A stretch of DNA of 64,000 nt from an uncultured Desulfovibrio sp. (GTDB lineage: Bacteria; Desulfobacterota; Desulfovibrionia; Desulfovibrionales; Desulfovibrionaceae): the NCBI GenBank assembly GCA_900541395.1, contig UQJT01000004.1, positions 42,645 through 106,644 on the forward strand, written 5' to 3'. The translations under genes were made by a program, and so were the position numbers. A model generated the notes under the pieces. That model ran no database searches. It was not told the origin of the DNA and worked only from the letters and a program-made list of their open reading frames with translations. Every line of letters begins with the position of its first letter. Positions within the stretch are counted from its first letter, which is position 1. This document shows, in pieces, positions 14,014 through 33,145 of the stretch.

Positions 14014-14128
14014 CCAGACGACTGCTTCTTTGAGAAAATGGAGACTCAAATTCTGCTGAAGACGGAATGTTTCATTTTCGCGCTGATACAGCGTTGTCAC
14101 ATGAGGGGAAACCTCATAAGGAGCACTG

Positions 14129-15622: not shown

Positions 15623-15711
15623 ATAATACACGATGTCCATTCACAAAGTCATGCCGGTCATTTTTCCATTCATAACTTTATACGGGGTATACCCTTATTC
15701 AGGAGATTGTC

Positions 15712-15942: not shown

Positions 15943-15951
15943 GAGATAGAC

Positions 15952-17634: not shown

Positions 17635-17655
17635 CGCATACAGAGCCATTAATAA

Positions 17656-17709
17656 GGTCATGCCTGGCCAGCATAGTCTGAAATGACTATATACCAACCA
17701 GGCATGACC
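17656..17709 (+). terminator. Two-tier inverted repeat at the end of the flavoprotein cluster
   Basis: GGTCATGCCTGG (17656-17667) pairs perfectly with CCAGGCATGACC (17698-17709). Inside, TAGTC and GACTA can form a second short stem. It starts 21 bp after the flavoprotein stop. It may be a terminator or 3' stabiliser; the exact palindromy also fits a protein-binding site. Confidence 0.5.
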
Positions 17710-18173
17710 GTTAATACAAACGTAATACGGTTAAAGCATTTTCAGCTTGAAAATACTCCAGGAGTCGAGCGAAGCGGGGCTCGTCTCTGCTCTCCTTATC
17801 CGTAACGCGCTTCGCGCGGACGGCTAAGGGCGCCGCGACATCGGAGCCGCCGCAATTCATGGGCGGCCGATAGCTCCGATGGAGGCGTGAAATCTGCGGG
17901 CCGGAACACAGGGCCCTGGCCGACAGGTATTTTCAAGGGCAAAACGCTCTTGGGAACCGATCTGAAAACCTTGTGTTCCACCCGGCAGATAACGACCTTG
18001 ACCCGCTTCCGCTCCATTTGGCCTTTTCCCGTACCTCTCCGGCCGTTGCGACACGCTTCCCGCACGTCTTGTCGCGTTGTCTTTCCCAAGGCGTCGTCAG
18101 TCAACGGCACCCGGCCGCTTCCTCAAAAACGCCGGGAGCCGAAATCGGCGCCAAGGGTCCTGATTGCGGTCAT
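17710..18173. other. Intergenic region between convergent clusters
   Basis: 464 bp without a convincing gene. A small perfect hairpin ATTTTCA / TGAAAAT lies at 17738-17754. Open frames here run through arginine/serine-rich shadow sequence. Confidence 0.5.
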
Positions 18174-19286
18174 TCATACGCGGGCGTCGATATCCGCGAT
18201 GACGTCCAGCACACCGGCCATATCCCCGGCGGCGGGCACGCGAAAGCGTACCGAGTTTTTGCCGATGCCGGAAAAATCCGAGCCCGATATGACCAGCACC
18301 CGCCGTTTGGCGAACTCGCGGGCCAGGTCCACGGCGGGGTCGGCGTGGGTCAGCAGAGAAATGGACACCGTGGGTTCGGTGCATGCCACGGCGATGCGCT
18401 TCCAGGGCCGCAGCAATTCCCGCTTGATGGCCGCCGTCCTGTCCCGCAACGCGGTCAGAAAGGCCGCGTCGGTCACGGCCCTGGCGGCCACATGCCGGGA
18501 CAGGGCGGACACGGTATAGGGGTTTGTGATGTTGCCCGCGGCGCGGGCCAGTTCATCCGGCAGCACCAGATAGCCCGCCCGAAGTCCGGCCAGCCCGAAG
18601 CCCTTGGAAAAAGTCTTGGCCACCAGCAGGTTTTCGTGCCCGCCCCACAGGGTCAGGGCCGAGCATTCCGGAGCCATATAGTCGCCGTAAGCCTCGTCCA
18701 CCAGCACGGCCACATTCAGGGCGGCCGCCGCCCGCAGAATTTTCTCGATGGCCGCCAGAGGGATGACCTGTCCGGTGGGATTGTTGGGATTGTCCAGGTA
18801 GGCCAGCTTGTGTTCCGGCCGCAGGGCGGCGATAAAGGCGTCGGGATCGAAGCGGTACCCGTCTTCCGCCCGCAAAGGCACGGCGTCGAACAGGCAGCCG
18901 CGCATCTTCACGTCGGTTTCATATTCCGAAAACTGGGGCACATAGCCCAGCACCCGATCGCCGGGTTCCAGAAACAGACGGTTGACCAGATACAGCCCGG
19001 CCACGGAGCCGTCGCACAGAACGATGTTGTTCCGTTCCGGCCCCTTCTGCCCGGAGGACCTGGGCGCGTGGGCCACGACGGCGTCCTTGAGAGCGGGGGA
19101 ATGAGGGTACGGCCCGGCCATGGCGAAATTCAGCCCGGCGAACGCCTCTCGCGCCCGCTCCGAGGCCATGACCGTATTGATGCCTTCGCCGCAGTCCACG
19201 TCGAAGTCGGCGAAAAGGTCTTCGGATTCGATGGCGTAACTCTTTTTCAGATGACGGCGTATGCCGTCCGCGATGCGAAATTCCAT
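18174..19286 (-). CDS. Class I/II PLP aminotransferase (HisC/aromatic-type)
   Basis: 370 aa from the ATG at 19286, preceded by GAGGGGAG. PLP-fold landmarks: DNPNNPTGQ at about 165, VDEAYGDY at about 196, PLP lysine K228 in TFSKGFGLAG, and R236 for the phosphate. It resembles histidinol-phosphate and aromatic aminotransferases, cytosolic enzymes that swap amino and keto groups. It is the last gene of the minus-strand series that starts with the hpd genes. A tyrosine aminotransferase feeding 4-hydroxyphenylpyruvate to that pathway would fit, but HisC or alanine/aspartate specificity is equally possible from sequence. Confidence 0.85.
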   Translation of the reverse strand: MEFRIADGIRRHLKKSYAIESEDLFADFDVDCGEGINTVMASERAREAFAGLNFAMAGPYPHSPALKDAVVAHAPRSSGQKGPERNNIVLCDGSVAGLYLVNRLFLEPGDRVLGYVPQFSEYETDVKMRGCLFDAVPLRAEDGYRFDPDAFIAALRPEHKLAYLDNPNNPTGQVIPLAAIEKILRAAAALNVAVLVDEAYGDYMAPECSALTLWGGHENLLVAKTFSKGFGLAGLRAGYLVLPDELARAAGNITNPYTVSALSRHVAARAVTDAAFLTALRDRTAAIKRELLRPWKRIAVACTEPTVSISLLTHADPAVDLAREFAKRRVLVISGSDFSGIGKNSVRFRVPAAGDMAGVLDVIADIDARV

Positions 19287-19351
19287 ATTGCTGCTCCCCT
19301 CCGGACGCCGCGCGGCGATCCGGACCGATAACAAAGCGTCCGCAGTCTCAA

Positions 19352-19380
19352 GCGCCCCGCCGGTTTGTCCGGCGGGGCGC
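19352..19380 (-). terminator. GC-rich hairpin between ykvI-like and aminotransferase genes
   Basis: Perfect 12-bp stem GCGCCCCGCCGG / CCGGCGGGGCGC with a 5-nt loop, 23 bp past the stop of the transporter gene. The T-tract is weak on both strands. It suggests at least partial separation of the aminotransferase from the upstream genes. Confidence 0.55.
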
Positions 19381-19403
19381 TTGCATGTCGGGTTTACGAC
19401 CGT

Positions 19404-20597
19404 TCAGCGCAGCGCCTTGCCCGCCGCCGGATCGGTTTGGGCCGGAGCCTGCCCGCCCGTCACCGAACCGTACTTGACGACCTTGTACAGGCCCACGGTC
19501 ACCAGAGGAATGAGATAAACCAGAATAAAACCGTAAGACATGAGCTGATACCCCATGCCGATGAGGTCGATAATGCCGAATTTGGCGAAAATGGTGGCCA
19601 GCAAAAAGATGATCACCGTCACGCCGCCCCGGCTGAAACCGCTCATGTAGGGTTTGCCCGCGTCGGCCAGACCTTTGTCGATACGCTCCAGAAGGGCGTG
19701 GATCATGCCGGTGGCGGTTTCGATGAGGGTCCAGCCCACCACGACGCCGAACACGATAACCAGCAAAGGACTGCCGGATACGGCCCCAAGCATGGTCAGC
19801 CACGGCACGGAGGCGCCCAGCACCTGGGGATCGGGATAAAAGGCCATGACCGCGAAGTAGGTGAAAAACCACGGAATGGTCATCAGAGCCGCGCCGATAA
19901 CGCCGGAAATGACGGCCTCTTTACGGGTGGTCTGACGACGCAGGGTAAACAGCCCGGCGGGGATGGCGGACAGATTGTAGCTGGCGTACAAAATGCCCCA
20001 GCCCGCCGCGGTCAATACGCCCGCGCCGGGCACGTAGCTGGTGTCGTGGGTGGCGAATACCTGGCCGATCTGCGTATGGCGGCCGGCAATGACCAGAACC
20101 GTAAAGACGATATAGGCCGCGTACAGGATGATGGTGCCGAAGGTTTCGAATTTTTCCACCACCCGGCTGCCGTAAAAATTGAGCAGCCCGGCGATGATAA
20201 TCAGCGCGATGACGCCTATCCAGTAGTTGAGACCTATGGTCTGCTGCAATATTTCGCCCGTGGCCGAGGCCATGACCGAAATGATAAGAAACAGCAGGAT
20301 GAAATAGATGACGTCGTAGACGATCCACAACGGTCCCGCAATGGTCCGCACGATGGATTTATAGTCGTAAATTTTATAAATGCGGGCCAGCTCGAAGGTG
20401 AGCACGGCGATGATGCCGAAGGCCAGAAAGATGAACAGGCCGGAAATCCAGCCGTTGGCGCCGAATTTGGCCCCGTATTCGATGATTTCACGCCCCGTCG
20501 CGTAACCGCCCCCGATAAGCACCGACTGGAGGACGATGCCGGGCAGCAGGTATTTGGCCCAGCCCCTGTTGAAAAAACCCCGCTTGTTCTCTGCCAT
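19404..20597 (-). CDS. YkvI-family membrane protein (amino-acid-transporter-like)
   Basis: 397 aa, about 10-11 membrane segments. The opening LLPGIVLQSVLIGGGYATG and the ATGEILQQTIGLNYW region match the uncharacterised YkvI family within the APC-type superfamily. Members are thought to be amino-acid or related transporters; substrates are not established. Start chosen at MAENKRGFF, with GGGAAG just upstream. Its place between the aminotransferase and the hpd genes makes an amino-acid role plausible (inference). Confidence 0.8.
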   Translation of the reverse strand: MAENKRGFFNRGWAKYLLPGIVLQSVLIGGGYATGREIIEYGAKFGANGWISGLFIFLAFGIIAVLTFELARIYKIYDYKSIVRTIAGPLWIVYDVIYFILLFLIISVMASATGEILQQTIGLNYWIGVIALIIIAGLLNFYGSRVVEKFETFGTIILYAAYIVFTVLVIAGRHTQIGQVFATHDTSYVPGAGVLTAAGWGILYASYNLSAIPAGLFTLRRQTTRKEAVISGVIGAALMTIPWFFTYFAVMAFYPDPQVLGASVPWLTMLGAVSGSPLLVIVFGVVVGWTLIETATGMIHALLERIDKGLADAGKPYMSGFSRGGVTVIIFLLATIFAKFGIIDLIGMGYQLMSYGFILVYLIPLVTVGLYKVVKYGSVTGGQAPAQTDPAAGKALR

Positions 20598-21201
20598 CTT
20601 CCCTTTCCGCCTGCATGGGACGGCGCGCCGCCCCTGGTTACAAAAAAAGCAGACCACAGCCGCCTTGTCGTGGCGGCGCGGCGTGCTTGCCCTTGCTTCC
20701 GTATCGCACGGGGGTATATTTTTTTGCCAAAAATGTCAAACAATGGCATTATTCTGCCCGATAATCCGATACGGTCGGAACAGCCCCGCCCGACGCGACG
20801 CCCCGCATCCGACGACAGAGCGGGCGACGGCGGCCCGTGGATACCGTGGATGCCGTGAATGCAGCGGATGCCGCAGAGGCCTTGAACGCGCAAAGGCCGC
20901 GCTTCCTTACAAAGGAAATGCGGCCCCATAAGCAAGCCCCCGCGGCTCCCGGCATCATGCCACGCTGTTACCGTCGCCGAAAGCCTGAAGGTCGCAAAAC
21001 AAAAAACACGGTTTTGCCTTGCTCACACGCCTGCGGCGGCGCGCGCCTCCTTCAGGGGCGCGCCTGGTGCCGCGTCAAGCGACGCCAGAGTATTTTGCTT
21101 TTGAAATTAGCGGCGCTGCCGTCATTTCGCCTGAAAAGCGTAGTTTTCAGGCGGGCGCGGGCGGCCGCCGGAGCACTCGCCGTTTTCAACGGCAAACCGC
21201 T
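20598..21201. other. Intergenic region without a recognisable gene
   Basis: 604 bp between the YkvI-like and DUF4125 genes. Open frames look like shadows. The short inverted repeat CTGAAAA / TTTTCAG near 21130 is too weak to assign. A promoter for the YkvI-like gene may be here. Confidence 0.45.
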
Positions 21202-21768
21202 CTAAGCCCCCTCCCGCAGTCGGGCGGCCTCCTCTCGCTCATCCAGCGAGGCGTACCCCAACCGGCGCCACAGGCGCTCGTAGCGCTCCAGGGCCAGGTT
21301 GCGGCCCTCGTTCCGCGCCCGTAGAATTTCCGTCCCATACAGGGCCAGGGTGACATCGGACCAGGTTTCCAGTTCGCAACGCATATAGTGACGGAAGGCG
21401 TCTCCGCCCCTCCCCGGCACCGCGTGGGGATACAACCGGGACGCCTCGGCCAGAAAATCCGCCTCTTCGCCGGTGATGACGTCAACCAGCGGATTGTCCG
21501 TCAGCGGGGGCAAGCTGTCCTCCATGCGGGCGTATTTCTCCACCATGAGGTTGCGTCCCTGCATCCCGGCCTGCTTCAGATCGTTCAGGTACGAGGTCAG
21601 GGTGGAGTCGTCGTGCACCGACAGACTCATCCAGCGCATGAGGCGGAAAGTTTTGGGCCGTTTCTGACAGGTCGAGGGACCGTCCGCGTCGGGCACGGCC
21701 AGAAACATGGCCAGTTCGCAATCTATGATTTCATGCAGCAGCGCCTCATGGGCATCGTTATCAGGCAT
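21202..21768 (-). CDS. DUF4125 family protein
   Basis: 188 aa from the ATG at 21768, chosen because ACGGAGG lies 6 nt upstream; the longer frame adds arginine-rich leader. The protein is built of two similar halves: CELAMFLAVP ... GRNLMVEKYARMED, then ADFLAEASRLYPH ... GRNLALERYERLWR. This agrees with the DUF4125 family, small cytosolic helical proteins of unknown function common in gut anaerobes. It lies 138 bp downstream of an MFS gene in the hpd series. No function is proposed. Confidence 0.75.
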   Translation of the reverse strand: MPDNDAHEALLHEIIDCELAMFLAVPDADGPSTCQKRPKTFRLMRWMSLSVHDDSTLTSYLNDLKQAGMQGRNLMVEKYARMEDSLPPLTDNPLVDVITGEEADFLAEASRLYPHAVPGRGGDAFRHYMRCELETWSDVTLALYGTEILRARNEGRNLALERYERLWRRLGYASLDEREEAARLREGA

Positions 21769-21906
21769 GATTTCCTCCGTCTCTGTTTGCAACATGGAAA
21801 TCCGGCGGCCGCGGGCCGTCCCAAGGTCGTTCGCGTTCCCTCCCCGGCGAACTCCGCCCGCCGGACGGCGAAAAAGCCTTGCGCGGACCGGCATGACTCG
21901 CCCCGG

Positions 21907-23193
21907 CTACGCTCGCTGTTCCGCGCGCGCGGAAACCGGGGCCGCGCTTTCCGCATTGGTTTCATACGCCTTATGATGCAGCAGGCGGGTGCCGATGAGG
22001 ACGCAGACAGCCAACAGGGCCATATAGAACAGAATGGCCGCCCGGTAGCCGCCGGTCAGATCGAACACCAAGCCCGACACAATGGGGCCGAGGGTGGCCC
22101 CCAGGTAAAAAAAGCTGGCCACGCGACTGTAAATGGCGGAAAAATCCTTCTGCCCCAGGGCGGCCATGGTGACCATAGGGGTAATGATGGTGGGGCAGGA
22201 CAAGCCGACTCCGAACAGCACGGCGGCGATGTAGCACATCACGATGCCCTCGCGCACGAAAAGCAGGGTCAGCATGCCGCAGAAGAGCACGCCCGTGGCC
22301 ACACAGAAGTTACCTCTGGTGCCGATTTTGTCGTCCAGCCAGCCGAACAGCATTTTGGCGAAACCGTTGCACAGACTGGCAATGCTCACTACCGAGGCGG
22401 CCAACACCACGGCGTACCCCACATCGGTCAGGTAAGCCTGCATTTGAGTATAGATGCCGATGCCGCAAGCGTTAAGCGCCATAGCAATGAAGCATACGGC
22501 CAGAAACGAGCCGGTTTTTTTGGCCTCGTCCCAGGTCAGGCCGCTCATCTCGCAGGTCCCGACTCCGATACATTCCCCGTCCGGCGCGCGTTCGGCCAGG
22601 CCCAGAGCCACCTGCCCCTTGTCTTCGGGCTTGAATGCGTAGCCCAGCAGATAGGGCGCCATGCCGCAAAGCAGAATGCCCGCCGTGATCCGGTAGGCGG
22701 CGCGAAAGCCGAAGCTCTGGATGAGAGCCGCGCACACCGGGTTATAGATCATGGCTCCCATCGCCGTGCCCAGCATGGCGATGCCCAGGGCCTTGCCCTT
22801 GTTCTTCACGAACCATTTGCCGGTGATCATGGCCACCATGGTGGTGCCGGTAAACGACAGCCCCACCCCGATAACGGCGGCGCACAGGTACAGGTGCCAC
22901 TTATTTTGAGCGAAAGACAGGCAAAACCAGCCTCCGGCCACGCAGAAAACGCCGAGAGTGGACCACACGCGCGGCCGCGCCGCCTTGAACAGTTTGGTAA
23001 GCTGCGGCACCAGCAGAATCATGACCACAGTCAGGCAGGAATTGTACAGGCTGGCTTCGGACCGGGCGATGCCCAGAGCCTCGGTCAGCGGTTTGAGAAA
23101 CTGCCCCGCGCTGTTGTTGACCAGTCCGGTGCCCGATGCCAGCACCAGCAGGTTGAACATCACCATATACCAGCCGTAAAACGCCTTGCCCAC
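21907..23193 (-). CDS. MFS transporter (OFA/monocarboxylate type), copy 1
   Basis: 428 aa, 12 membrane segments. GTG at 23193 is the preferred start: GGGAGAG lies just upstream, and the residues after it (GKAFYGWYMV) align with the start of the paralog at 28995 (KKFYGWYVV); an upstream ATG would add 13 residues. NNSAGQFLKPLTEAL, GKWFVKNKGKALGIAMLG and GWLDDKIGTRGNF are shared with that paralog. Family members exchange or symport organic acids. It may move the aryl acid or its product; specificity is not readable. Confidence 0.87.
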   Translation of the reverse strand: MGKAFYGWYMVMFNLLVLASGTGLVNNSAGQFLKPLTEALGIARSEASLYNSCLTVVMILLVPQLTKLFKAARPRVWSTLGVFCVAGGWFCLSFAQNKWHLYLCAAVIGVGLSFTGTTMVAMITGKWFVKNKGKALGIAMLGTAMGAMIYNPVCAALIQSFGFRAAYRITAGILLCGMAPYLLGYAFKPEDKGQVALGLAERAPDGECIGVGTCEMSGLTWDEAKKTGSFLAVCFIAMALNACGIGIYTQMQAYLTDVGYAVVLAASVVSIASLCNGFAKMLFGWLDDKIGTRGNFCVATGVLFCGMLTLLFVREGIVMCYIAAVLFGVGLSCPTIITPMVTMAALGQKDFSAIYSRVASFFYLGATLGPIVSGLVFDLTGGYRAAILFYMALLAVCVLIGTRLLHHKAYETNAESAAPVSARAEQRA

Positions 23194-23401
23194 GGCTTCT
23201 CTCCCGTTATGGCGCGCCGCTGTGGTCCGCAAGCGCCCGCCCCGGCGATCACGGGGCGCAAACCGTGACCCCGGTCATGCGCGCGCCATGCCCCGGATGT
23301 CGGAAGAAGAAACGGTACCGCCGCCCCGCCGGGTCTCTCCGGTCCCGAACCGGGCGGACAGGCTACGGTATTTCAACGTGTGCTTTCAAAACAACCATGC
23401 G

Positions 23402-24352
23402 TTAATAATACACATCGTCGCCCACGTAACAGGCTATCCGCCGATCGAGGTAGACGTTTTGCAGACGTTCCATAAGCTCGGGCGGCGTCCCCTCGCAGTC
23501 CGCGTAGGCGTAGGTCATCCCCATCTGCTCCCACTTGGACGTGCCCAGCCGGTGGAAGGGCAGCAAATTGATTTCGAACAGGCCCAGCGACTCCATAAAA
23601 CGCGCGGTTTCAGCGGCGTTTTCCAGGCTGTCGTTGAAGTCCGGAACCACGGGCATGCGCAGAATGAGCCGCCCCTTCCAGCCGGACGACGCCAGCCGGG
23701 CAATATTGGCCAGGATTCGTTCGTTGCCCACGCCGGTTTTGGCCCTGTGCCGCTCGCTGTCCATGTGTTTGACATCGATGAATGCGAAGTCTATGAGGCG
23801 CATGATCTCCTCAAACGTCTCCGTCCGGGCGCAGGCCGTGGTTTCGATGGCTGTATGAATGCCCTCCTTTTTGCACTCGCGCAGGATGTCGAGCAGAAAG
23901 TCGCTCTGCAGCATGGGTTCTCCGCCCGAAAAGGACGCCCCCCCATCTTTGCTCCAGTACTGCCGATCGCGACGAAACACGTTCATAATTTCGCTCACGC
24001 TGCGATATACGCCGGAAACGCGCGCCCCCTCCTGACTGCACACGCGGGCGCAATCGTAGGTCTCGCAACTGCGGCACACGGCGTGATCGAACGTCGGTTC
24101 ACCGCCCTCCACGGTCGGAAGGGCAACGGCCCCGTGGGGACAGACCTGGAGACAACGACGGCAGTTGTTTTTGACGAACCGGCATTTCTGCCGACTGAAC
24201 AGCAACTGACGCTTCAGCTCACGCCCTTCCGGATTGGCGCACCACTCGCAGCGCAGGGGGCAGCCCGACAAAAAGATTTGCGTGCGGCTCCCCGGCCCGT
24301 CGTGCACGGAAAAGCCCTGGATATCGAAAACCAAGCCCTCTCGTTCCGCCAT
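23402..24352 (-). CDS. hpdA: 4-hydroxyphenylacetate decarboxylase activating enzyme (radical SAM)
   Basis: 316 aa. The radical-SAM motif CPLRCEWC (C31, C35, C38) binds the catalytic [4Fe-4S]; SGGEPMLQ is the SAM-contact GGE segment. An inserted ferredoxin-like domain carries two more cysteine groups (C57, C64, C67, C71 and C93, C96, C101, C105). This layout is standard for glycyl radical enzyme activases, which use SAM to place the radical on the partner glycine. It is downstream of hpdB and hpdC on the same strand, with a 349-nt gap after hpdC. The ATG at 24352 follows GGAGGAAAAGGG. Confidence 0.92.
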   Translation of the reverse strand: MAEREGLVFDIQGFSVHDGPGSRTQIFLSGCPLRCEWCANPEGRELKRQLLFSRQKCRFVKNNCRRCLQVCPHGAVALPTVEGGEPTFDHAVCRSCETYDCARVCSQEGARVSGVYRSVSEIMNVFRRDRQYWSKDGGASFSGGEPMLQSDFLLDILRECKKEGIHTAIETTACARTETFEEIMRLIDFAFIDVKHMDSERHRAKTGVGNERILANIARLASSGWKGRLILRMPVVPDFNDSLENAAETARFMESLGLFEINLLPFHRLGTSKWEQMGMTYAYADCEGTPPELMERLQNVYLDRRIACYVGDDVYY

Positions 24353-24701
24353 AAGCCCTTTTCCTCCGGCGAGACGCTTCGTCCCGTTCAAGACTGGTGG
24401 TTGACCCCGTGACGGGGGGGGGAACGCCGCCTTCCCGCCCCCCTCGGCACGGGCATAATGCCCCTTGTCCCCATACGGGCCGCCCCGCCGGAATGACGCA
24501 ACAGCCTGAACTCCGTCGCCGGAGAGTCAAGGCGGGACGGTCCCGATACGAGGAATGGGGTTGATTGTCTCCCTGCGAGGTCTTCAGTCGTCGAGGCCAA
24601 GCGCCTTACGGATGAAGAGAACGCAAGACGGGCGGGAGGGGCCCCGACCCGGGGCGCCATGCGCCCCGGTCCATCCGGACTCCCCCCGCGCTTTGCGGGG
24701 C
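24353..24701. other. Intergenic region between hpdC and hpdA
   Basis: 349 bp, GC-rich with long G and C runs near 24411-24445. A short hairpin (CCCCGC / GCGGGG) lies at about 24684-24700, directly after the hpdC stop. No gene seen. The gap may lower hpdA expression relative to hpdBC. Confidence 0.5.
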
Positions 24702-24959
24702 TCAGGCCCTGGCGTAGCCTTCGCAGTTGAGGGCGACGCGCTCGCCCAGAGCCCAGTAATCACGGTCTTCCAGGCCGTCGCAGCGGCCTATGCCCTGCTC
24801 GTCCGCCCGGCTGAAGTGGGAGCAGTTTTTGCATTTGGCCTTCTGCCGGAAGCATTCGCAGGCTTCGCCGTCAAAGGGCACCAGACCATTTTTATTCACG
24901 CAGTAGCCCTTGGCCACGTCAAAGAACTCGAAGTTCTCACAATCATTATGTTTGCTCAT
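24702..24959 (-). CDS. hpdC: 4-hydroxyphenylacetate decarboxylase small subunit
   Basis: 85 aa, the size of known HpdC (85-86 aa). His4, Cys7, Cys20 and Cys34 or Cys36 fit the ligand set of one [4Fe-4S] cluster; Cys43, Cys46, Cys60 and Cys79 fit the second. KCKNCSHF and DEQGIGRCDGLED match the HpdC core. In the characterised enzyme the small subunit binds HpdB and tunes its radical state. The start at MSKHNDC is 4 nt after the hpdB stop, with GGAG at 9 nt. A small subunit of this kind is a hallmark of true 4-hydroxyphenylacetate decarboxylases. Confidence 0.93.
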   Translation of the reverse strand: MSKHNDCENFEFFDVAKGYCVNKNGLVPFDGEACECFRQKAKCKNCSHFSRADEQGIGRCDGLEDRDYWALGERVALNCEGYARA

Positions 24960-24963
24960 ATTC

Positions 24964-27687
24964 TTATACTCCTTCATATTCCGTGCGGGCTACCAGTTCG
25001 TCCTGAATGGGTTTGCCGATTTCCACCCAATACTGGGTGAAACCGGCCACGCGGACCATAAGGTCGCGATAGTTTTCCGGATTGGACTGGGCCTTTTTGA
25101 GCAGCTTGCTGTCCACCACGTTGAACTGGATGTGGAAGCCGCCCTTCTTCATATACGCGCCCACCAGGTCGGCCAGGCGTTCGGTGCCCGCCTCGCCGCG
25201 CACGGCGGTGGGGTGCAGCTTCATGTTCATCTGCGAATTCTGCGAATCGCTGTGGTCCCACACCGTGGCCGAATTGAACAGGGCGTAAGGGCCGTTGCGG
25301 TCCGTGCCCGGATAGGCGGACATGGAGGCGTCGGCAAAGGTGGTGCCTTCCAGACGTCCGTCCGGAGTGGCCATGCAGCCCTGGCCCAGCAGGCCGTGCG
25401 TGGACACGGAAATCTGGCAGGCGTACATGGGCTTGCCGAAGGGCGATTCGAATTCGGCGCAGGTGGGGATCAGCCAGTCTTCATACTGCTTGAGGATGGC
25501 TTCGCAGTACCCTTCATCGTTGCCGTACTTGGGCGCCAGCAGACAGTCGGAATGGATGTCGTCGTACCGCTCCATGTTTTCCTTTTTGATCTGCTCGCCC
25601 ATGGAATAGTTTTTGGTTTCCGACGCGGTGTAAAAGCCGAAGTTGTTGTGGATGGCGTCCCGCATCTGATCCAGGGTGTACTTCTTGTCTTCGTAGACCA
25701 GTTTTTTCAGGGCGGCCAGAGCGTTGACCATGCTGATGGTGCCCGAGGTCTCGATGTTATAGGTGGCGTTGTACCGGAAACCCATATTCGCGTGTTCGTA
25801 GCCCTTTTCCAGGCAGTCGGGCTTCAGCGTGGACTGCCACACCGGCACGTCGATCTTGCGGTGGATGTCGTGCTGAATGTTGCAGCAGCGCTGCTGCACG
25901 CGGATGCAGTACTTATAGTATTCGCAATAGGTTTCCCACAGTTCCTCGTAGGTTTCGAGCTTCTTGTCGTGGGGCGGGAAAAGCTGAACCTTGTACTTGT
26001 GGTCGTAGCCGTTATCCAGCACCAGGCTGAGGATTTTGGGATTGGAGATGAAATGCACGCCGATGGACGTAGAGTTGCCCGCGCCCACCGGGATTTCATA
26101 AGTTTTGCCGTTGAGGGTAAGTTCCTTCCAGCAACAGGGCGAGGTTTCCAGGCAGCCGCCGATGGCCATGGCCCGCGCCTCTTCCTCGGTCATCCCTTCG
26201 GGGGCGTACTGCTTGCACAGGAACTTGATGCCCACCTGGTTGTTCATCCAGGCCGGGTACCCCGTGCCGGTCTTGACCACTTCGGCGCACTTGAGCACGA
26301 AATCGCGCGGCAGTTTTTCATCCCACAGCACGCTTAAGGTGGGCTGCGGCGACTGAAGCGTTTCGGCCGCATGCAGGATGAGCCATTCCAGTCGGTTGCA
26401 GGCGGGCTTGCCGTCACGGGTCAGGCCGCCCACGCTGACGTTGTTGAAGGTGTTGCCGGACAGCACGCTGGTGGAACTGCCGCTGACGAACAAGTCCATG
26501 CAGGTGAACTTGACGCGCATGCACTCCAGCATTTCCAGCACGTCGTGTTCGGTCAGGCGGCCCGCTTCCAGGTCCTGCTCAAACCAGGGATAGAGCACCT
26601 GGCCCAGACGCCCGGGAGAAATGCCGGAGGCAACCTCTTCATTGACCAGGCCCAGATGGGTGAACCAGCACAGTTGCATGGCCTCGAACAGGGTTCGGGG
26701 CTGGTTATGGGCCACCCAGTCGCAACGCTCGGCGATGGCCGCGTACTCGGCCTTCTGGGCGGCGTCCCGAGTCAGCCCGCTAAGGCGGCGGGCTTCCTTG
26801 GCGTAGTTCTGAATCCAGGTCTGGATGCCTTTGACCAGCACGATAACCGCTTCGTAGTAGTACAAACGGTCCATGCCGCGCAGACCGTCGCCGTCGGCAT
26901 ACCCCGCCACCTCGGCGGCCCGACGCCGGCAGAACTCGATCATGCCGTCCAGCCCCATCTGAAGCGGATAGTAATAGCTGACCACCTCGCGGCCGACGGG
27001 AATGGTGTAGGCCGAATCGGGCCGGGCGGTGAGTGTGCGCCCCAGTTCGTTCTTGGTATGGAATTCGGGCACGCGGGCGCTGTATTTTTCACCCAGGTCC
27101 AGAATGGTCTTGCCGTCCCAGTAATCGGTGATCCGGTTCAGACCGGGCAGCTCTTCGGTACGCACCCCGAACTTGCCCGCCAGCGAGACGATGCCGGGCA
27201 TGTCGTGGGTAACGTTGCCGCCGCCGGTGCCGAGCACGGCCTGGGCGTCGATGGCGTTGATGGTGGCCCCGGCCTTCTGGCTGAATTCTTCTTTCTTGGC
27301 CGCGAAAAAGGCCTGGATGAGCCAGGGCATGGGGAAAGACCCGCGCAGGTAGCACGCCTTGCCGCCCACGATGATTTCACCGGGATAAATGCTGGTGGTC
27401 ACCCGCGAAAAAGCGGCCGCCAGGGAATGGGCACGGCGCATAATCTGGATTTCGCCCTCCAGTTGCTCATACTTGCGGGTATACCAGTAGGTCCACTCGG
27501 TGGAGGTGGAAGCCAGGGTGTTGTAATACAGGTCCATGAGCTTTTTGGCGCGGGGCGTGGGCTCATAGGGGAAGGTCTCGCGGTCGGCTATTTCATTTTC
27601 GTTGCCGCCGGTGCCGCCGTATGTGCGGTTCAGGCCCATGCCTTTTTCCGCAAGGATATCCGCCAGTTTGCGACTGGTCGCCTGCAT
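24964..27687 (-). CDS. hpdB: 4-hydroxyphenylacetate decarboxylase glycyl radical subunit
   Basis: 907 aa. The thiyl Cys512 and Glu514 sit in GGCLETSPCC, and the radical Gly882 in VRVAGFTQYW. Compared with Clostridioides difficile HpdB (residues from memory: Cys503, Glu505, His536, Glu637, Gly873), all five align at a constant +9: C512, E514, H545 (IGVHFI), E646 (YNIETSGT), G882. The enzyme decarboxylates 4-hydroxyphenylacetate to p-cresol in the anaerobic cytoplasm. GGAG precedes the start. Choline TMA-lyase, isethionate lyase and glycerol dehydratase have different motif contexts and no HpdC partner. Activity on a close arylacetate remains possible. Confidence 0.92.
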   Translation of the reverse strand: MQATSRKLADILAEKGMGLNRTYGGTGGNENEIADRETFPYEPTPRAKKLMDLYYNTLASTSTEWTYWYTRKYEQLEGEIQIMRRAHSLAAAFSRVTTSIYPGEIIVGGKACYLRGSFPMPWLIQAFFAAKKEEFSQKAGATINAIDAQAVLGTGGGNVTHDMPGIVSLAGKFGVRTEELPGLNRITDYWDGKTILDLGEKYSARVPEFHTKNELGRTLTARPDSAYTIPVGREVVSYYYPLQMGLDGMIEFCRRRAAEVAGYADGDGLRGMDRLYYYEAVIVLVKGIQTWIQNYAKEARRLSGLTRDAAQKAEYAAIAERCDWVAHNQPRTLFEAMQLCWFTHLGLVNEEVASGISPGRLGQVLYPWFEQDLEAGRLTEHDVLEMLECMRVKFTCMDLFVSGSSTSVLSGNTFNNVSVGGLTRDGKPACNRLEWLILHAAETLQSPQPTLSVLWDEKLPRDFVLKCAEVVKTGTGYPAWMNNQVGIKFLCKQYAPEGMTEEEARAMAIGGCLETSPCCWKELTLNGKTYEIPVGAGNSTSIGVHFISNPKILSLVLDNGYDHKYKVQLFPPHDKKLETYEELWETYCEYYKYCIRVQQRCCNIQHDIHRKIDVPVWQSTLKPDCLEKGYEHANMGFRYNATYNIETSGTISMVNALAALKKLVYEDKKYTLDQMRDAIHNNFGFYTASETKNYSMGEQIKKENMERYDDIHSDCLLAPKYGNDEGYCEAILKQYEDWLIPTCAEFESPFGKPMYACQISVSTHGLLGQGCMATPDGRLEGTTFADASMSAYPGTDRNGPYALFNSATVWDHSDSQNSQMNMKLHPTAVRGEAGTERLADLVGAYMKKGGFHIQFNVVDSKLLKKAQSNPENYRDLMVRVAGFTQYWVEIGKPIQDELVARTEYEGV

Positions 27688-27738
27688 AGTTCGACTCCTT
27701 TTTTAGGATGATGGATATGAATGCCCGCGTCTTGCCGC

Positions 27739-28995
27739 CTAAGCGGCTTTGGCCGGTTCAGGGGCCTTCTTGCGGAGCAAATTGGTGCCGATGACGATGG
27801 ATATGACCAAGAGCGCGATATAAAACAGAATAGCCGACCGGTAGCTGCCGGTGTAGTCGAACACCACCCCGGAAATGATGGGCCCGATGGTGGACCCCAG
27901 GAAGAAAAACGAGGCCACCCGACTGTAAATGGCGGCGAAGTCCTTCTGGCCCAGGGCGGCCATGGTCACCATAGGAGTGATGATCGACGGGCAGGCCAGG
28001 CCGAAGCCGAACAGCACGGCCGCCACGTAGCACACCGCGATGCCCTGCTGTACGAAGAGCATGGCCGTCAGCCCGCACAGGAACACCGCCATGGCCACCA
28101 TGTAGTTGCCGCGAGTGCCGATTTTATCGTCCAGCCACCCGAAGAACATTTTGGCGAAGGCGTTGCACAGGCTGATGATGCTGACCACGGTAGCCGCCAG
28201 CACGGCGGCGTATCCGACGTCGGTAAGGTAGGCCTGAACCTGGGTATAGATGCCGATGGTGCAGGCGTTGAGCGCGATGGCGATGAAGCACACGGCCCAG
28301 AAGGCCGGAGTTTTGCGGGCCTCGGCGTAGGTAAGGCCGGTCATTTCCTTACGCGGCGCGGCGGGACCGCCCGCGGAGGCGGCGTTGTCTTCCAGCCCCA
28401 GCGCCACCTGCCCCTTGTCCTCCGGTTTGAAGGCGTAGCCCAACAGATACGGGATCATACCGACGAACAGGATGCCCGCGGTGATCTGATAGGCCGTACG
28501 GAACCCGAAATGCTGAATGAGAGCCGCGCAGGCCGGATTGTAAACAAAGGCGCCGATGCCGGACCCCAGAAGGGCGATGCCCAGCGCTTTACCCTTGTTC
28601 TTCACGAACCACTTGCCGATGATCATGGTGACCATGGACGTGGCGGTGAAAGACAGACCGATACCGATAATGATGGCGCATATATAAATGTGCCACTTGC
28701 TTTGGGCGAAGGACAGACTGAACCAGCCTCCGGCCACGCAGAACACGCCGATGGTGGAGATGACGCGGGGCTTGACCACCTTGAAAAGCTTGGTGACCTG
28801 CGGAATGACGAAAATCATGGCGATCGTCATGCAGGAACTGTACAAGTTGGCTTCCGACCGGGTGATGTCGAGAGCCGCCGTGAGAGGTTTCAAAAACTGA
28901 CCCGAGCTGTTGTTGACAAGCCCCGTGCCGAAAGCCAACACCAGCATATTGATGAAAACGACATACCAACCATAGAATTTTTTTTGCTCAGCCAT
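27739..28995 (-). CDS. MFS transporter (OFA/monocarboxylate type), copy 2
   Basis: 418 aa, 12 membrane segments, MAEQKKFYGWYVVF at the start. It is the first gene of the hpd series, 51 nt before hpdB, so co-transcription is likely. It shares long blocks with the MFS at 21907-23193 (GKWFVKNKGKALGIA, VASFFFLGSTIGPIISG). Probable role: import of 4-hydroxyphenylacetate or a related acid (inference from position). The loop after helix 6 differs between the two copies. Confidence 0.88.
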   Translation of the reverse strand: MAEQKKFYGWYVVFINMLVLAFGTGLVNNSSGQFLKPLTAALDITRSEANLYSSCMTIAMIFVIPQVTKLFKVVKPRVISTIGVFCVAGGWFSLSFAQSKWHIYICAIIIGIGLSFTATSMVTMIIGKWFVKNKGKALGIALLGSGIGAFVYNPACAALIQHFGFRTAYQITAGILFVGMIPYLLGYAFKPEDKGQVALGLEDNAASAGGPAAPRKEMTGLTYAEARKTPAFWAVCFIAIALNACTIGIYTQVQAYLTDVGYAAVLAATVVSIISLCNAFAKMFFGWLDDKIGTRGNYMVAMAVFLCGLTAMLFVQQGIAVCYVAAVLFGFGLACPSIITPMVTMAALGQKDFAAIYSRVASFFFLGSTIGPIISGVVFDYTGSYRSAILFYIALLVISIVIGTNLLRKKAPEPAKAA

Positions 28996-29629
28996 AATGT
29001 AAAGCTTCCTCGGTTAAGAAATATTCCTTTAACGTACCAAGAAGCCGGCGGTATCTGAATGCGTGCCACCTCCCCATCCGGCGTCGATCGCTTCTCTCTC
29101 TTTTTCGTCGCGCCAGGTTTGCGTCCGGCCTGAGCCGAAACCTTTAAAGAAAACCGCTCTCGTGAAATTCTCCACTTTTTCTTCCACACCACGTCCGTCC
29201 TCAAAAAGGACGAAGATATGTAAGAAAAAAATTTCCGGTCGCGGCCTCCGCCCGGTGTTCAAAAACCACGGAGCGGAGACCCGACAGGCCGGTCCATCAC
29301 GGAAGCGGGCCGGAAACCGAACGTCCGCGGAGCAGGAAGACCAACCGGAGCAATCCCCTTGAACCCTCATGAGAACAAGGTTCCGCCTCCGATCGCAGAA
29401 GCCCGGACGTTGACCCCTGCCAGGGGGCGCTGATAAAGTTGATGTGTCGCATTACTCGTCAGTCCCCGTGAGACGGATATAGGAAAATTACTGCTCAAAA
29501 TCAAGCATATTTTTGCACAATGAGCATCATTCCTTTTAAAGCAGGACTTTCTTCCATTATTTCCGATTATTTTCCGCCTTGCGATGGTTGGGACCGACTT
29601 TATCTCCAACCCAGGAATCATCACATCTT
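28996..29629. other. Divergent regulatory region of the hpd cluster
   Basis: 634 bp between the first hpd-series gene and the XRE regulator gene. It contains the candidate minus-strand promoter at 29476-29504, which would give a leader of about 470 nt, and a small CGTCC / GGACG hairpin at about 29200-29216. No riboswitch class could be matched. Open frames here lack a ribosome-binding site and family resemblance. Confidence 0.5.
29476..29504 (-). promoter_or_regulatory. Candidate sigma-70 promoter for the hpd series
   Basis: On the minus strand, TTGATT (29504-29499) and TATATC (29481-29476) are separated by 17 nt. It is the best -35/-10 pair in the divergent region, but the -10 is imperfect and the start codon is about 480 bp away. 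Confidence 0.35.
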
Positions 29630-30115
29630 ATGGACATCGCAGGACGGATCAGGATGGTCCGGGGGAATTTGTCCCAGGTGAAGTTTGCTGAAAAAATCGG
29701 CTTATCCCAGCGGACAATTGCTAACTATGAAAACGGCGACAACATCCCGAACGCCGAGGTGGTGACCCGCATCTCCGACATATTCGGCGTATCGCTGGAC
29801 TGGCTGCTTAAGGGGCAAGGAGCGATTCATCCGGAACTCGCATCTTCCGAGCAGTCCGACAAAGACGAAGACGGGGATGCGGCGATCCGCTTCCAGTGCC
29901 CGCGCTGTCGCAAGCTTTCGGCCGAACTGTGGGCCGAACGCCGGGAAGCGCGGTTGCAAACCGCCGAGTTGCGGGAGGTAAACGCCGAAAACCGCCGTTT
30001 ATGGCAGGAAAACGCCGGCCTGCGCGAACGTCTGGCCCGCCTGGAACCGAGGGGGCAGGAGCCTCTGAACTCCGGCGACCCGCCGATTCCGTCCCTCTCT
30101 GACCGGCGGGGTTGA
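29630..30115 (+). CDS. XRE-family regulator with CxxC and coiled-coil C-terminus
   Basis: 161 aa from the ATG at 29630. The N-terminal HTH (LSQVKFAEKIGLSQRTIANYENG) is Cro/CI type and ends in DIFGVSLDWLLKGQG. The C-terminal half has CPRC followed by about 50 residues of heptad-like Glu/Leu/Arg repeats, probably a coiled coil. It is divergent from the hpd series and the only regulator beside it, so it may control hpd expression. One CPRC alone is not enough to claim a metal site. Confidence 0.8.
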   Translation: MDIAGRIRMVRGNLSQVKFAEKIGLSQRTIANYENGDNIPNAEVVTRISDIFGVSLDWLLKGQGAIHPELASSEQSDKDEDGDAAIRFQCPRCRKLSAELWAERREARLQTAELREVNAENRRLWQENAGLRERLARLEPRGQEPLNSGDPPIPSLSDRRG

Positions 30116-30128
30116 CGCCGCCCTCCAC

Positions 30129-30170
30129 AAAAAAACGGGCGACGCGCCCCAGCGGCGCGCGCCCACCCGT
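30129..30170 (-). terminator. Intrinsic terminator for the aldo-keto reductase operon
   Basis: On the minus strand the stem CGCGCC / GGCGCG (30143-30159), extended by outer ACGGG / CCCGT pairing, runs into seven T residues (complement of 30129-30135). It lies about 270 bp past the aldo-keto reductase stop, in the 319-bp gap that otherwise holds no gene. Confidence 0.55.
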
Positions 30171-30434
30171 TCCCGGCCCGGCGGTTCTTCCATTCCGTTT
30201 CCCCGACGCCGCGCATACTCGCGCGTTGTCGCCGCGTTTCTTCTCTCCGGCGTGGCCGCGGCGGCAGGTACAATGGGCATGCTTGCCGCCGCACTGTTTT
30301 TGAGGCCGGGACGCGAACGACGGCCGTCGCCCGGCGGCGTCCCCCCTGTTTGTCGCGGGACATGAAGCGCCCGACGGACCGCCGGAAAGCCCTTTTCTCC
30401 ATTGAAACACAGAGGGCTTATCCCGTCCCCGGCC

Positions 30435-31289
30435 TCAGCTCCGGTCTTCGATGGCGTAGAGCCGTTCAACCTCGGACGGAGCGAGCGTGTCCAGGATCAG
30501 GCCGCGTCCCTCATCCAGACGGGCGATGGCTTCCCGATCCGCGTTGTCCAGGGTGAAATCCCAGATGCGGAAATTTTCCTCGATGCGCTCTTTATGGACG
30601 GATTTGGGAATCACGGCCACCCCGCGTTCGATGTTCCAGCGCAACATGACCTGTGCCGCCGTCTTGCCGTATTTACGGCCGATGGCGACCAAGGTTTCGT
30701 TGTGGAAAATGCCGCGCATCCCCTCGGCGAAAGGCGCCCAGGCCTGGGCCCGGACGTCGTGCTTGCGCATGAGTTCCAGGGCTGTCACCTGCTGGCAGAA
30801 GGGGTGCATTTCCACCTGATTGACCAGAGGGGGAACGGCCGCATTGCGGCATAAATCCAGCAGCCGATCGGGCAGGAAATTGCACACGCCGATGGCGCGG
30901 ACACGGCCTTCGGCATAGGCTTCCTCCATGTCTCTCCAGGCGCCGTAATAATCGCCGAAGGGCATGTGAACCAGATACAAATCCAGGTAGTCCAAGCCCA
31001 GACGCCGCAGCGACGCCTCCAACGCCCTGCGCGTTTTGCCGCGGCCCGCCGCCGGAATCCACACTTTGGTGGTGATGAACAAATCCCGGCGGGGAATGCC
31101 GCTTTGCCGGACGGCCGCGCCCACAGCTTCCTCATTGCCGTATACCGACGCCGTGTCGATAAGCCGGTACCCGACCGCCAACGCCTCGGAGACCGCCCGC
31201 TCGCACAGGGCGGCGTCCGGCACCTGAAAGACGCCGAAGCCCTGCAAGGGCATATCTACCCCGTTTTTCAAAGTCACAGTCTGCATCAT
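30435..31289 (-). CDS. Aldo-keto reductase
   Basis: 284 aa TIM barrel. Catalytic Asp and Tyr occur in LIDTASVYGNE, the Lys in FITTKVW, and the His in DLYLVHMPFG. VIPKSVHKERIEEN is the NADPH-binding segment. The family reduces aldehydes and ketones with NADPH in the cytosol; this one resembles the 2,5-diketogluconate reductase / YvgN group. It is the last gene of the operon controlled by the divergent LysR regulator. The physiological substrate is unknown. Confidence 0.9.
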   Translation of the reverse strand: MMQTVTLKNGVDMPLQGFGVFQVPDAALCERAVSEALAVGYRLIDTASVYGNEEAVGAAVRQSGIPRRDLFITTKVWIPAAGRGKTRRALEASLRRLGLDYLDLYLVHMPFGDYYGAWRDMEEAYAEGRVRAIGVCNFLPDRLLDLCRNAAVPPLVNQVEMHPFCQQVTALELMRKHDVRAQAWAPFAEGMRGIFHNETLVAIGRKYGKTAAQVMLRWNIERGVAVIPKSVHKERIEENFRIWDFTLDNADREAIARLDEGRGLILDTLAPSEVERLYAIEDRS

Positions 31290-31312
31290 GGTTTCCTCAT
31301 CATAATGATTGG

Positions 31313-31855
31313 TCAGGCGTTCCGGCCCATATCGCGGGCCGCCCCGAGAACGGCGGACAGAGCGCGCACGGCTCCCGCCCGGTCCGCCCCCACACCCCGG
31401 ACCACACCCTTCAGGGACGTTTTTTCAAAACAGTCAATCCAGCCCTGTATTTCCTTGACGGCTCCGTCCACGGCCCGCTCGTCTCCGTCGGCCGCCGTCG
31501 CCAGCAGATAGACGTCGCGAAACGCGTAATCCGACGGGAACAAGGGATTGGTGCGATCGAGCAGAGTCTTCAACTGGCCGCACACGGCATAAAAATAAAT
31601 GGGGGTGGCAAAGACCAGGACATCCGCGTCCTTCATCCGCTGCGCGATGGCGTCCGCGTCGTCGTGGATGACGCAGCGTCGGGTCCGCTGGCAGGCCAGA
31701 CAGCCCCGGCAAAACCCGATGGCCTTGTCGGCCAGGCGTATCGTGTCCACGTCGTGCCCGGCCTCACGGGCTCCCCGGGCGAACTCTCCGGCCAATATGG
31801 CGGAATTGCCGTCGGTACGAAGACTGGAGGAAATAATCAGAATTTTTTTTGCCAT
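31313..31855 (-). CDS. NADPH-dependent FMN reductase / flavodoxin-like protein
   Basis: 180 aa from MAKKILIISSSLRTDGNS, the FMN-phosphate loop of the family. GFCRGCLACQRTRRC carries a cysteine cluster typical of iron-sulfur-flavoprotein-like members, and VFATPIYFYAVCGQLKTLLDR is the flavin-contact region. It starts 97 bp after the MFS stop and ends 24 bp before the aldo-keto reductase start. Probably a cytosolic flavin oxidoreductase; partner unknown. Confidence 0.85.
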   Translation of the reverse strand: MAKKILIISSSLRTDGNSAILAGEFARGAREAGHDVDTIRLADKAIGFCRGCLACQRTRRCVIHDDADAIAQRMKDADVLVFATPIYFYAVCGQLKTLLDRTNPLFPSDYAFRDVYLLATAADGDERAVDGAVKEIQGWIDCFEKTSLKGVVRGVGADRAGAVRALSAVLGAARDMGRNA

Positions 31856-31951
31856 GACAATCATGCTCCCACAGGTTGGAAAGACGACAACGCGCGTCGG
31901 CGTGGTCGTGCCGTCCGGTATTTCGCTGTCTTTTCACACTCCGGCCGGGTT

Positions 31952-33145
31952 CTAGGGCAGTCGTCCGGTCTCCCGGGCGTACAGGGTAAAACTGATTCGC
32001 ACCCACAACGCGGCGACGACAAGAAACGCCGCGGCGATCAGGAAAATGCCCCGGATGCCGAAGGCATCGAAGGTCAGGCCGCCCACGGCGGCCACCAGCC
32101 CGATGGCGAACTGGGTGACCGCCACGGACAGACCGCCCGCCAGTTCGGCCTGGTCGGCCAGGGTGCGGGCGATCCACGCGGACCAGCCGACGGGAACGAA
32201 CCCGAACAACAATCCCCAGATCAACACCAGGAACAGGTTCAGGGCAAGCCCCGCGCCGAAGAAGAACAGGAGCGCCGCCCCCGCGAACGCGAGCAGCACC
32301 AGGGGCAGGGTCAGCCGAAACCAACGGCCCAGCACGGCCCCGGCGGCCACGGTGCCCGCGCAGTTGGCGACGCCGAAGGCCAGCAGCACCCCGGACAGGA
32401 CGTCGGGCCGCAAGGCCAGATTCTGCTCCAGAAACGGCCGTAGATAGGTGAAAAAAACGTGGTAGCCGCCGTAACTGAAAATGATGCCGCCCATGCCCGC
32501 CAGCACCCAGGAGCGCCGCGCCAGGGCGAACAGATTTCGAAAGCTGCTGCCCGGACGCGCAGGCAGGGACGGCATGGCCGCAAACTGCCAGGCAAACATG
32601 ATCACGCCCAGCATGGAGGCCAGAAGAAAGACGTTCCGCCACCCCATGAGGTGCCCCAGGTAGCTGGAGAGGGGCAAGGAAAGGATGGTCGCCACGGACA
32701 CCCCGGCGTATACGATGCTCAGGGCGCGGGGCAGCTCCTTCGCAGGCACGAGTTGCAGGGTGACCGCCGGTGCCAGGGACCAGAAGCCGCCCACGCAGAC
32801 GCCGAGCAGTCCCCGCCCCGCCAGAAGCACGCCGTAATTCGGCGCCAGGGCGACCAGCAGATTCGAGAGCACCAGCAGCAGGGAAAAGGCCAGCAGAATG
32901 TGTCTGCGGTCCACGCCCCTGGTCAGAGGAGCCAGAAGCAGACTGGAGAAGACCGAGAATACCCCGACGGCGGTGACGGTCTGTCCGGCCATGCCTTCGG
33001 TGACGGCCAGATCGCGGGCGATGGGAGTCAGCAGGCTGACGGGGATAAATTCGGCCGCGATGAGGCTGGTCACTCCCGCGAACAGAGAAAACACCGCCGC
33101 CCAGTGCGGCGCTTCGGTGGAAAAAATGGCTGTTTGCGCGTTCAT
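31952..33145 (-). CDS. MFS exporter (DHA1/AraJ-like)
   Basis: 397 aa, 12 membrane segments. LLAPLTRGVDRRHILL is the loop 2-3 signature region and GRGLLGVCVGGFWSL is motif C-like. It resembles AraJ/NepI-type drug or metabolite efflux carriers. The start at MNAQTAIFS was chosen over a 72-residue low-complexity extension; the ribosome-binding site is weak. It lies in the LysR-linked operon, so it may export the compound processed by its neighbours. Confidence 0.85.
   Translation of the reverse strand: MNAQTAIFSTEAPHWAAVFSLFAGVTSLIAAEFIPVSLLTPIARDLAVTEGMAGQTVTAVGVFSVFSSLLLAPLTRGVDRRHILLAFSLLLVLSNLLVALAPNYGVLLAGRGLLGVCVGGFWSLAPAVTLQLVPAKELPRALSIVYAGVSVATILSLPLSSYLGHLMGWRNVFLLASMLGVIMFAWQFAAMPSLPARPGSSFRNLFALARRSWVLAGMGGIIFSYGGYHVFFTYLRPFLEQNLALRPDVLSGVLLAFGVANCAGTVAAGAVLGRWFRLTLPLVLLAFAGAALLFFFGAGLALNLFLVLIWGLLFGFVPVGWSAWIARTLADQAELAGGLSVAVTQFAIGLVAAVGGLTFDAFGIRGIFLIAAAFLVVAALWVRISFTLYARETGRLP

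Follow-up and report, generated by a model that had tools for sequence, protein, structure and literature searches.

We analysed a stretch of 64,000 nucleotides from contig UQJT01000004.1 of an uncultured Desulfovibrio sp. assembly (hereafter the window), which carries the genes hpdB, hpdC and hpdA for the three parts of 4-hydroxyphenylacetate decarboxylase (HPAD), the oxygen-sensitive glycyl radical enzyme that forms p-cresol from 4-hydroxyphenylacetate. We consider it very probable that the window encodes a working HPAD in a Mailhella-related member of the Desulfovibrionaceae, and that this bacterium acquired the genes horizontally, by exchange inside a lineage of HPADs to which Blautia, Anaerovoracaceae and Eggerthellaceae also belong. 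This reading is built directly on the genes, their catalytic residues, the phylogeny of HpdB and the absence of the locus from a sister genome. The enzyme itself is ordinary; what stands out is the unexpected host family and the probable horizontal history.

A complete HPAD gene set

The genes hpdB, hpdC and hpdA are three intact open reading frames (ORFs) on the minus strand, together covering 23402-27687, and the product of each passes the cut-off of its NCBIfam equivalog model: the large subunit HpdB scores 1362.6 bits against 1150 (NF033715), the small subunit HpdC 79.4 against 50 (NF033716) and the activase HpdA 465.1 against 420 (NF033717). HpdC also contains the Pfam domains 4HPAD_g_N and HPIP_like. 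The solved structure closest to HpdB is 2y8n_A (E 1.1e-277), and 2y8n_B (E 3.2e-14) is the sole match of HpdC among solved structures at E ≤ 10; 2y8n is the HPAD of Clostridium scatologenes. Residues C512, E514, H545, E646 and G882 of HpdB align with C503, E505, H536, E637 and G873 of 2y8n at a constant offset of +9. The initial annotation had attached this offset to C. difficile, for which it does not hold: in C. difficile HpdB the residues are C507, E509, H540, E641 and G877 when numbered from the methionine (the extracted ORF begins four residues upstream), that is, an offset of +5. Its other structural claims were borne out, namely a three-part enzyme made of a 907-residue glycyl radical protein with these five residues, an 85-residue partner with the His/Cys pattern of HpdC and a radical S-adenosylmethionine (SAM) activase.

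Among 108 aligned HpdB relatives, C512 and E514 are conserved in all, H545 and E646 in 105 (the exceptions being L095, L096 and the indoleacetate decarboxylase L097) and G882 in 106 (the exceptions being L070, which meets a contig end, and the 854-residue P0005), so that the His and Glu expected to bind the phenol side are retained both against 2y8n and across the clade. An AlphaFold model of HpdB, of moderate confidence (mean predicted local distance difference test, pLDDT, 74.3), finds 2y8n as its best match (template modelling score, TM, 0.86/0.90), against at most 0.78/0.88 for any other glycyl radical enzyme in the 50 matches listed; the model is poor over 870-907, the radical loop, and the residue assignments rest on the alignment rather than on its geometry. 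In the aligned stretch of HpdC all eight ligands are present, H2, C5, C18 and C32 and then C41, C44, C58 and C77, which presumably serve the first and the second iron-sulphur cluster, respectively. HpdA carries the CxxxCxxC motif as CPLRCEWC together with two ferredoxin-like sets of cysteines, as judged by reading the sequence. Its ORF extends to 24391 if a TTG start is used; the ATG at 24352 is likelier, being preceded by GGAGGAAAAGGGCTT with a Shine-Dalgarno-like GGAGG.

The roles of these residues in HpdB (radical glycine, thiyl cysteine, Glu1, Glu2 and phenol-side histidine) follow PMC6181972 and what is generally known of the enzyme. Indoleacetate decarboxylase possesses Glu1, lacks Glu2 and has no small-subunit gene nearby (Liu et al. 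2018, PMC6181972). Since the loss of Glu2 is the mark of that enzyme, the retention of E646 argues for HPAD. The C. scatologenes HPAD (HpdBCA; PDB 2Y8N, 2YAJ) resembles the locus in subunit set, fold, catalytic residues and HpdC ligand pattern, although its HpdB is 47% identical in the structural alignment and its host belongs to another phylum; it adjoins the HpdDEFG/JK genes (PMC13285125), whereas the window has two carriers of the major facilitator superfamily (MFS) and a DUF4125 gene. We regard the locus as confirmed, on sequence grounds, as a genuine and complete gene set for HPAD, an enzyme already known.

Host and probable horizontal history

The window also holds ileS, rpoC and part of rpoB. 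Its RpoC is 96% identical to that of a sister genome, G190, and 84-90% identical to those of the next-ranked genomes, the named matches being a Desulfovibrionaceae bacterium (97%) and an uncultured Mailhella (88%). By this marker the host belongs to the Desulfovibrionaceae, a family of sulphate reducers, near Mailhella; its earlier description as Desulfovibrio-like therefore stands at the level of the family, the nearest named genus being Mailhella. We found no report of HPAD in Desulfovibrionaceae in the literature searched, for which subscription papers were mostly out of reach and database annotation was set aside.

Relatives of HpdB at E ≤ 1e-150 occur in 6 of 288 Desulfovibrionaceae genomes, the HPAD-type matches being 54-59% identical to the window protein and lying on different branches of the tree; the ten genomes with the most similar RpoC have none. 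Where no match was seen, the genome may be incomplete or the gene may have escaped the first look, RpoC itself being found in 257 of the 288. In these other HPADs of the family (G002, G003, G026, G153, G235 and G243) hpdB is accompanied by hpdC as in the window, and in G153 and G243 the MFS gene, hpdA and the DUF4125 gene likewise stand in one run. G002 shows weaker matches as well, at 45% and 35%. The first of these, L095 (G002:C72:4568-7213), is an HPAD-like glycyl radical enzyme, 45% identical, in which His545 is replaced by Gly and Glu646 by Trp and whose neighbour is an HpdC-like protein with both Cys sets; it is perhaps a decarboxylase for another substrate.

The tree of 108 rows, a quick tree with support from the Shimodaira-Hasegawa-like approximate likelihood ratio test (SH-aLRT) only, used 17 of 120 listed database proteins and left out duplicate genes (L088, L089, L098-L103, L114), other glycyl radical enzymes (L104-L108) and ORFs shorter than 700 residues. 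It places HpdB not outside but within the HPAD clade that holds C. difficile, Romboutsia and Tractidigestivibacter, with SH-aLRT values of 98-100 at the seven nearest forks that contain it. The nearest relatives with a placed host come from Blautia (L002, 81%) and from G306, of the same genus (82%), and the database proteins P0005 (85%) and P0002 (83%) are slightly closer; the clade of the window protein includes P0002, P0003, P0004, P0005, L002 and L113 (SH-aLRT 99). A binning error is hardly likely in G306, as its hpdB sits on a contig of 3.59 Mb, and within the genus Blautia an HpdB gene at E ≤ 1e-200 is found in 2 of 64 genomes. The two Blautia loci share the order hpdB-hpdC-hpdA with the window, with HpdC 69-70% and HpdA 63-66% identical; they differ in that no MFS or DUF4125 gene was found near hpdB, and the L002 locus has a guanine-plus-cytosine (GC) content of 45% against 0.58-0.60 in hpdBCA of the window. 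Blautia hydrogenotrophica is a reported p-cresol producer (Saito 2018, cited in PMC8588808), a species with which we do not equate G306. G306 also carries a second HpdB, L115 (G306:C1:3268136-3270742), which is 48% identical, has its own HpdC and HpdA and falls, together with L078 and L079, into a divergent clade.

Approximately unbiased (AU) tests rejected a single clade of all eight Desulfovibrionaceae HPADs (a cost of 965 log-likelihood units, p 1.8e-49) as well as a grouping of the window protein with L028 and L029 (322 units, p 1.7e-4). Furthermore, on contig C33 of the sister genome G190 the DNA matching window positions 9443 and 32032 lies only 238 bp apart, the 22.6-kb stretch between them, which holds the hpd cluster, being absent. 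Taken with the phylogeny, it is most likely that hpdBCA was shared horizontally with Blautia-like bacteria. The two ends of this stretch (9301-9800 and 31501-32300) share no exact direct repeat of between 12 and 30 bases, and we therefore speak of a variable segment rather than of a proven mobile element. The transfer vehicle was not found either, as 72,556 plasmid records gave no tblastn match at E ≤ 1e-100 and no HpdB relative was among five pattern matches on viral contigs.

The genes are widespread. The best 80 of 205 HpdB-related stretches from the search of genome contigs, which are the basis of the counts out of 80 given here, come by record title from Bacillota, Actinomycetota, Chloroflexota, Acidobacteriota, Bacteroidota and Pseudomonadota and further from Desulfobacterota, Spirochaetota, Coprothermobacterota and archaeal metagenome-assembled genomes (MAGs), that is, from at least eight phyla beyond Bacillota; many of these records are MAGs, in which misbinning or mislabelling is possible. 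The view that p-cresol is mainly a product of Clostridia accordingly holds for the producers named in papers (PMC8588808) and fails for the spread of the genes. With profiles for HpdC, HpdA, MFS and DUF4125 built from the window proteins and their matches in the same loci, 78 of the 80 relatives have an HpdC-like ORF that begins no more than 400 bases from the end of the HpdB ORF, 76 have an HpdA-like ORF at most 9 kb from hpdB and 47 an MFS gene within the same distance (one of them weak), several loci being clipped by contig ends.

Table 1. Features of the hpd region and of the surrounding window
Feature	Position	Strand	Evidence or remark
hpdB, HPAD large (glycyl radical) subunit, 907 aa	24964..27687	-	NF033715, 2y8n_A, residues, AlphaFold model
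hpdC, HPAD small subunit, 85 aa, both Fe-S ligand sets	24702..24959	-	NF033716, Pfam, 2y8n_B
hpdA, radical-SAM activase, 316 aa from the likelier ATG	23402..24352	-	NF033717, Shine-Dalgarno-like GGAGG
Non-coding gap hpdC-hpdA, 349 bp	24353..24701	-	RNA folding
MFS carrier 1, oxalate/formate- and monocarboxylate-type	27739..28995	-	PF07690; 51 bp upstream of hpdB
MFS carrier 2	21907..23232	-	PF07690; after hpdA
DUF4125 protein, last gene of the cluster (ORF from 21894)	21202..21795	-	PF13526, 148.3 bits, cut-off 25
Variable segment, 22.6 kb, holds the hpd cluster	9444..32031		blastn against G190 contig C33
RpoC gene	57987-62168		Same window, about 30 kb from hpd; host marker

Predicted activity and transport

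The organism is likely to form p-cresol; the chemistry that we outline and the role given to HpdC are carried over from characterised relatives. HpdA, with SAM and a [4Fe-4S] cluster, would generate the radical on G882 of HpdB, from which it would move to C512. E514 (Glu1) and E646 (Glu2) would flank the substrate, so that 4-hydroxyphenylacetate is oxidised, CO2 is lost and p-cresol is released. HpdC with its two [4Fe-4S] clusters would keep HpdB soluble and may help in storing or quenching the radical. Both MFS carriers would bring in 4-hydroxyphenylacetate from neighbours, a direction of transport that we infer, as we do the energetic benefit: because decarboxylation consumes a proton inside the cell, it could strengthen the proton gradient if the substrate enters as the anion and p-cresol leaves in neutral form. 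The generation of proton-motive force by anion uptake and proton-consuming decarboxylation is known for oxalate.

The two carriers flank hpdBCA and are 72.1% identical over 409 residues (blastp). An MFS gene stands directly upstream of hpdB in L001 and L004 likewise, and among the hpd loci compared the closest relatives of the window carriers are the MFS proteins in the hpd clusters of Eggerthella, Rubneribacter, Bacilliculturomica and Emergencia (34-40%). Uptake of arylacetates by MFS carriers beside HPAD was hypothesised in PMC6181972, and import of 4-hydroxyphenylacetate made by neighbours is the most likely function of the present pair.

Points against and alternative explanations

Several points weigh against a working, horizontally acquired HPAD. 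The AU tests cover 38 of the 108 rows, with groups chosen after the first tree had been seen. In hpdBCA the GC content at third codon positions (GC3) is 0.74-0.81, close to the values of host genes (0.83 in rpoC), so that the acquisition does not look recent. P0005, the nearest relative of HpdB, measures 854 residues on a 127,538-bp contig and is without the glycyl radical domain, being possibly a broken or misread copy. Transfer may have run in either direction: P0002, P0004 and P0005 bear no host name, and the Desulfovibrionaceae proteins L028 and L029 branch as the sister group of the entire 19-row clade. As for function, no subunit of the pyruvate:ferredoxin oxidoreductase type, such as C. 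scatologenes HpdDEFG, occurs among the window proteins scanned, which comprise part of the ORFs. Finally, the MFS carriers pass no NCBIfam cut-off (with the oxalate/formate or lactate transporter models, carriers 1 and 2 score at best 135.6 and 126.9 bits against 320), and their substrate is for this reason a guess.

Characterised HPADs also accept 3,4-dihydroxyphenylacetate, and one may ask whether the enzyme, while keeping an HPAD-like mechanism, has as its main substrate another para-hydroxylated arylacetate, for instance this compound, derived from plant polyphenols or catecholamines and converted to 4-methylcatechol. We hold this to be improbable, given that Glu2, the His and the remaining catalytic residues match those of characterised HPADs and that HpdB stands 212 bits above the equivalog cut-off. 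A chimeric assembly, in which Clostridial DNA was joined to a Desulfovibrionaceae contig, would agree with the position of HpdB, which is nearer to Blautia than to those relatives that were found in Desulfovibrionaceae; it is nevertheless very unlikely, in view of the base composition of hpdBCA, near that of the host and above that of the L002 locus, of the protein cluster P0001, whose 56 member sequences occur on 99 contigs of up to 285,796 bp, and of the DUF4125 gene of the same cluster, which groups with relatives of the host. Least credible of all, and close to negligible, is that HpdB is an indoleacetate or phenylacetate decarboxylase: superfamily and overall fold are in common, the second-best NCBIfam model is that of indoleacetate decarboxylase and the indoleacetate decarboxylase of Tractidigestivibacter (G294, L097) shares the decarboxylase type and an MFS neighbour, but in the comparison, which was made with indoleacetate decarboxylase, HpdB scores 687.6 bits against that model's cut-off of 1100 (NF033718), HpdA scores 308.2 against 425 for the corresponding activase, L097 lies across a branch of 2.71, which separates it from HPAD, and has no equivalents of H545 and E646, and the window has an HpdC, which is missing within 1.5 kb on each side of L097 and from the indoleacetate decarboxylase neighbourhoods of PMC6181972.

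DUF4125, a candidate partner of HPAD

The predicted structure of the DUF4125 protein is all-helical (pLDDT 90) and has no clear match in the PDB, where Foldseek may have missed the fold. The motif S/T-L-x-x-Y ... G-R-N-L-x-x-E-K/R-Y, recognised by eye, is repeated twice, which suggests that the protein arose with an internal duplication.

DUF4125 genes lie within 9 kb of hpdB in 10 of the 80 loci, in Coriobacteriia, Phascolarctobacterium and a Bacteroidota MAG, and hpd clusters with such a gene inside or nearby occur in several phyla (L007, L009, L037, L046, L060, L063-L065, L068, L071, L151-L153). In a set that was not picked on DUF4125, 296 Coriobacteriia genomes of which 13 have an HpdB at E ≤ 1e-230, the gene is present in 11 of these 13 against 2 of 50 genomes without HpdB, the latter being the first 50 of 283 by handle (Fisher p 9e-9); the species in these counts are related, which makes the p values too small. 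Within 10 kb of hpdB it is found in 8 of the 13 Coriobacteriia, where 0.18 would be expected, and in 4 of the 6 Desulfovibrionaceae with HpdB, where 0.05 would be expected. It follows hpdA directly in G153 and G243, whereas G003 has two copies at a distance of 7.6-8.2 kb and on the opposite strand.

A strict bond with HPAD is nonetheless contradicted in several ways. The gene is absent or distant in 5 of the 13 Coriobacteriia and 2 of the 6 Desulfovibrionaceae, the Phascolarctobacterium locus L037 is the only Bacillota one to have it among the hpd loci compared, and it is present in 7 of the 8 host-clade genomes searched that are without HpdB. DUF4125 is also described in a limonene ring-cleavage operon (PMC12583861) and in Gardnerella (PMC11410844); these two papers are the ones that a literature search for DUF4125 found, and neither passage concerns HPAD. 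Unlike hpdBCA, the DUF4125 of the window belongs to its own host lineage, as it groups with those of G190 and G197-G200 (support 100/99). We tentatively propose, with rather less than even confidence, that DUF4125 is an unrecognised partner of HPAD, acting for example in assembly, protection or product handling, that separate lineages recruited copies of their own and that in the present case a DUF4125 of the host lineage was joined to the horizontally shared hpdBCA.

One-cluster HpdC proteins

All 87 distinct HpdC sequences keep the four cysteines of the second cluster, and the ligands of the first vary: 70 sequences have H-C-C-C and 3 have C-C-C-C, whereas a single Cys is left in 3 and none in 11 (L046, L054, L058, L066, L067, L080 and L090-L094). 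Their HpdB partners, which account for all but one of the 12 proteins in a single HpdB clade, retain all five catalytic residues. Five of them are Desulfovibrionaceae genes, one each in G003, G026, G153, G235 and G243, in contrast to the window HpdC with its two full sets.

Other features of the window

The 349-nt gap between hpdC and hpdA folds as RNA with -190.3 kcal/mol (z -4.08 against shuffles); it has no Rfam match and no similar sequence in the window or in the hpd loci compared, and a tRNA is the sole Rfam match in the whole window. Between 20600 and 29700, sigma-70 promoter-like sites number 4 against 2.9 expected and terminator-like sites 18 against 9.1, while the sigma-54 -24/-12 pattern (up to two mismatches) occurs 57 times in the window, where chance alone would give 82, and is uninformative on the control of the cluster.

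Within the variable segment, 10148-17634 encodes a sigma-54 activator, two fumarate-reductase-like flavoproteins and a CitMHS carrier with a GC3 of 0.56-0.67, below that of the other genes measured, and these genes were possibly acquired more recently than hpd, judging by their composition; the flavoprotein gene at 15952-17634 has relatives of 79-82% DNA identity elsewhere in host-clade genomes. Positions 17735-17956 are a dispersed repeat of the lineage, with many copies in genome G183 (e.g., 87% over 119 bp). The 3' part of the tRNA-Met gene recurs as an exact 45-bp copy 9.7 kb from that gene (35814-35858 and 45529-45604), and the DNA between the two, with AAA ATPase, DUF3150 and VWA/CobT-like genes, is absent at the tRNA of G190, whose contig ends in the tRNA; it looks like an integrated element. 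Lastly, a single ORF at 6500-7897 on the minus strand matches both PdxS (SOR_SNZ) and PdxT (SNO) and is an apparent fused vitamin B6 synthase.

Implications

According to PMC12358834 the small subunit of HPAD has as yet no known function, and a role in radical reduction is unconfirmed; the one-cluster HpdC proteins offer a natural test of what the clusters of HpdC do, and with DUF4125 there is a concrete candidate for a further component of the enzyme. The uremic solute p-cresyl sulfate has p-cresol as its precursor (PMC10571392), and the high-level producers recognised in the gut number three besides C. difficile (PMC8588808). If the proposed activity is true, a Gram-negative producer from a hydrogen sulfide-forming family would change which organisms count as sources of p-cresol. 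The compound is more inhibitory to Gram-negative than to Gram-positive gut bacteria (PMC6135563), and such a producer would also raise the question of how it tolerates its own product.

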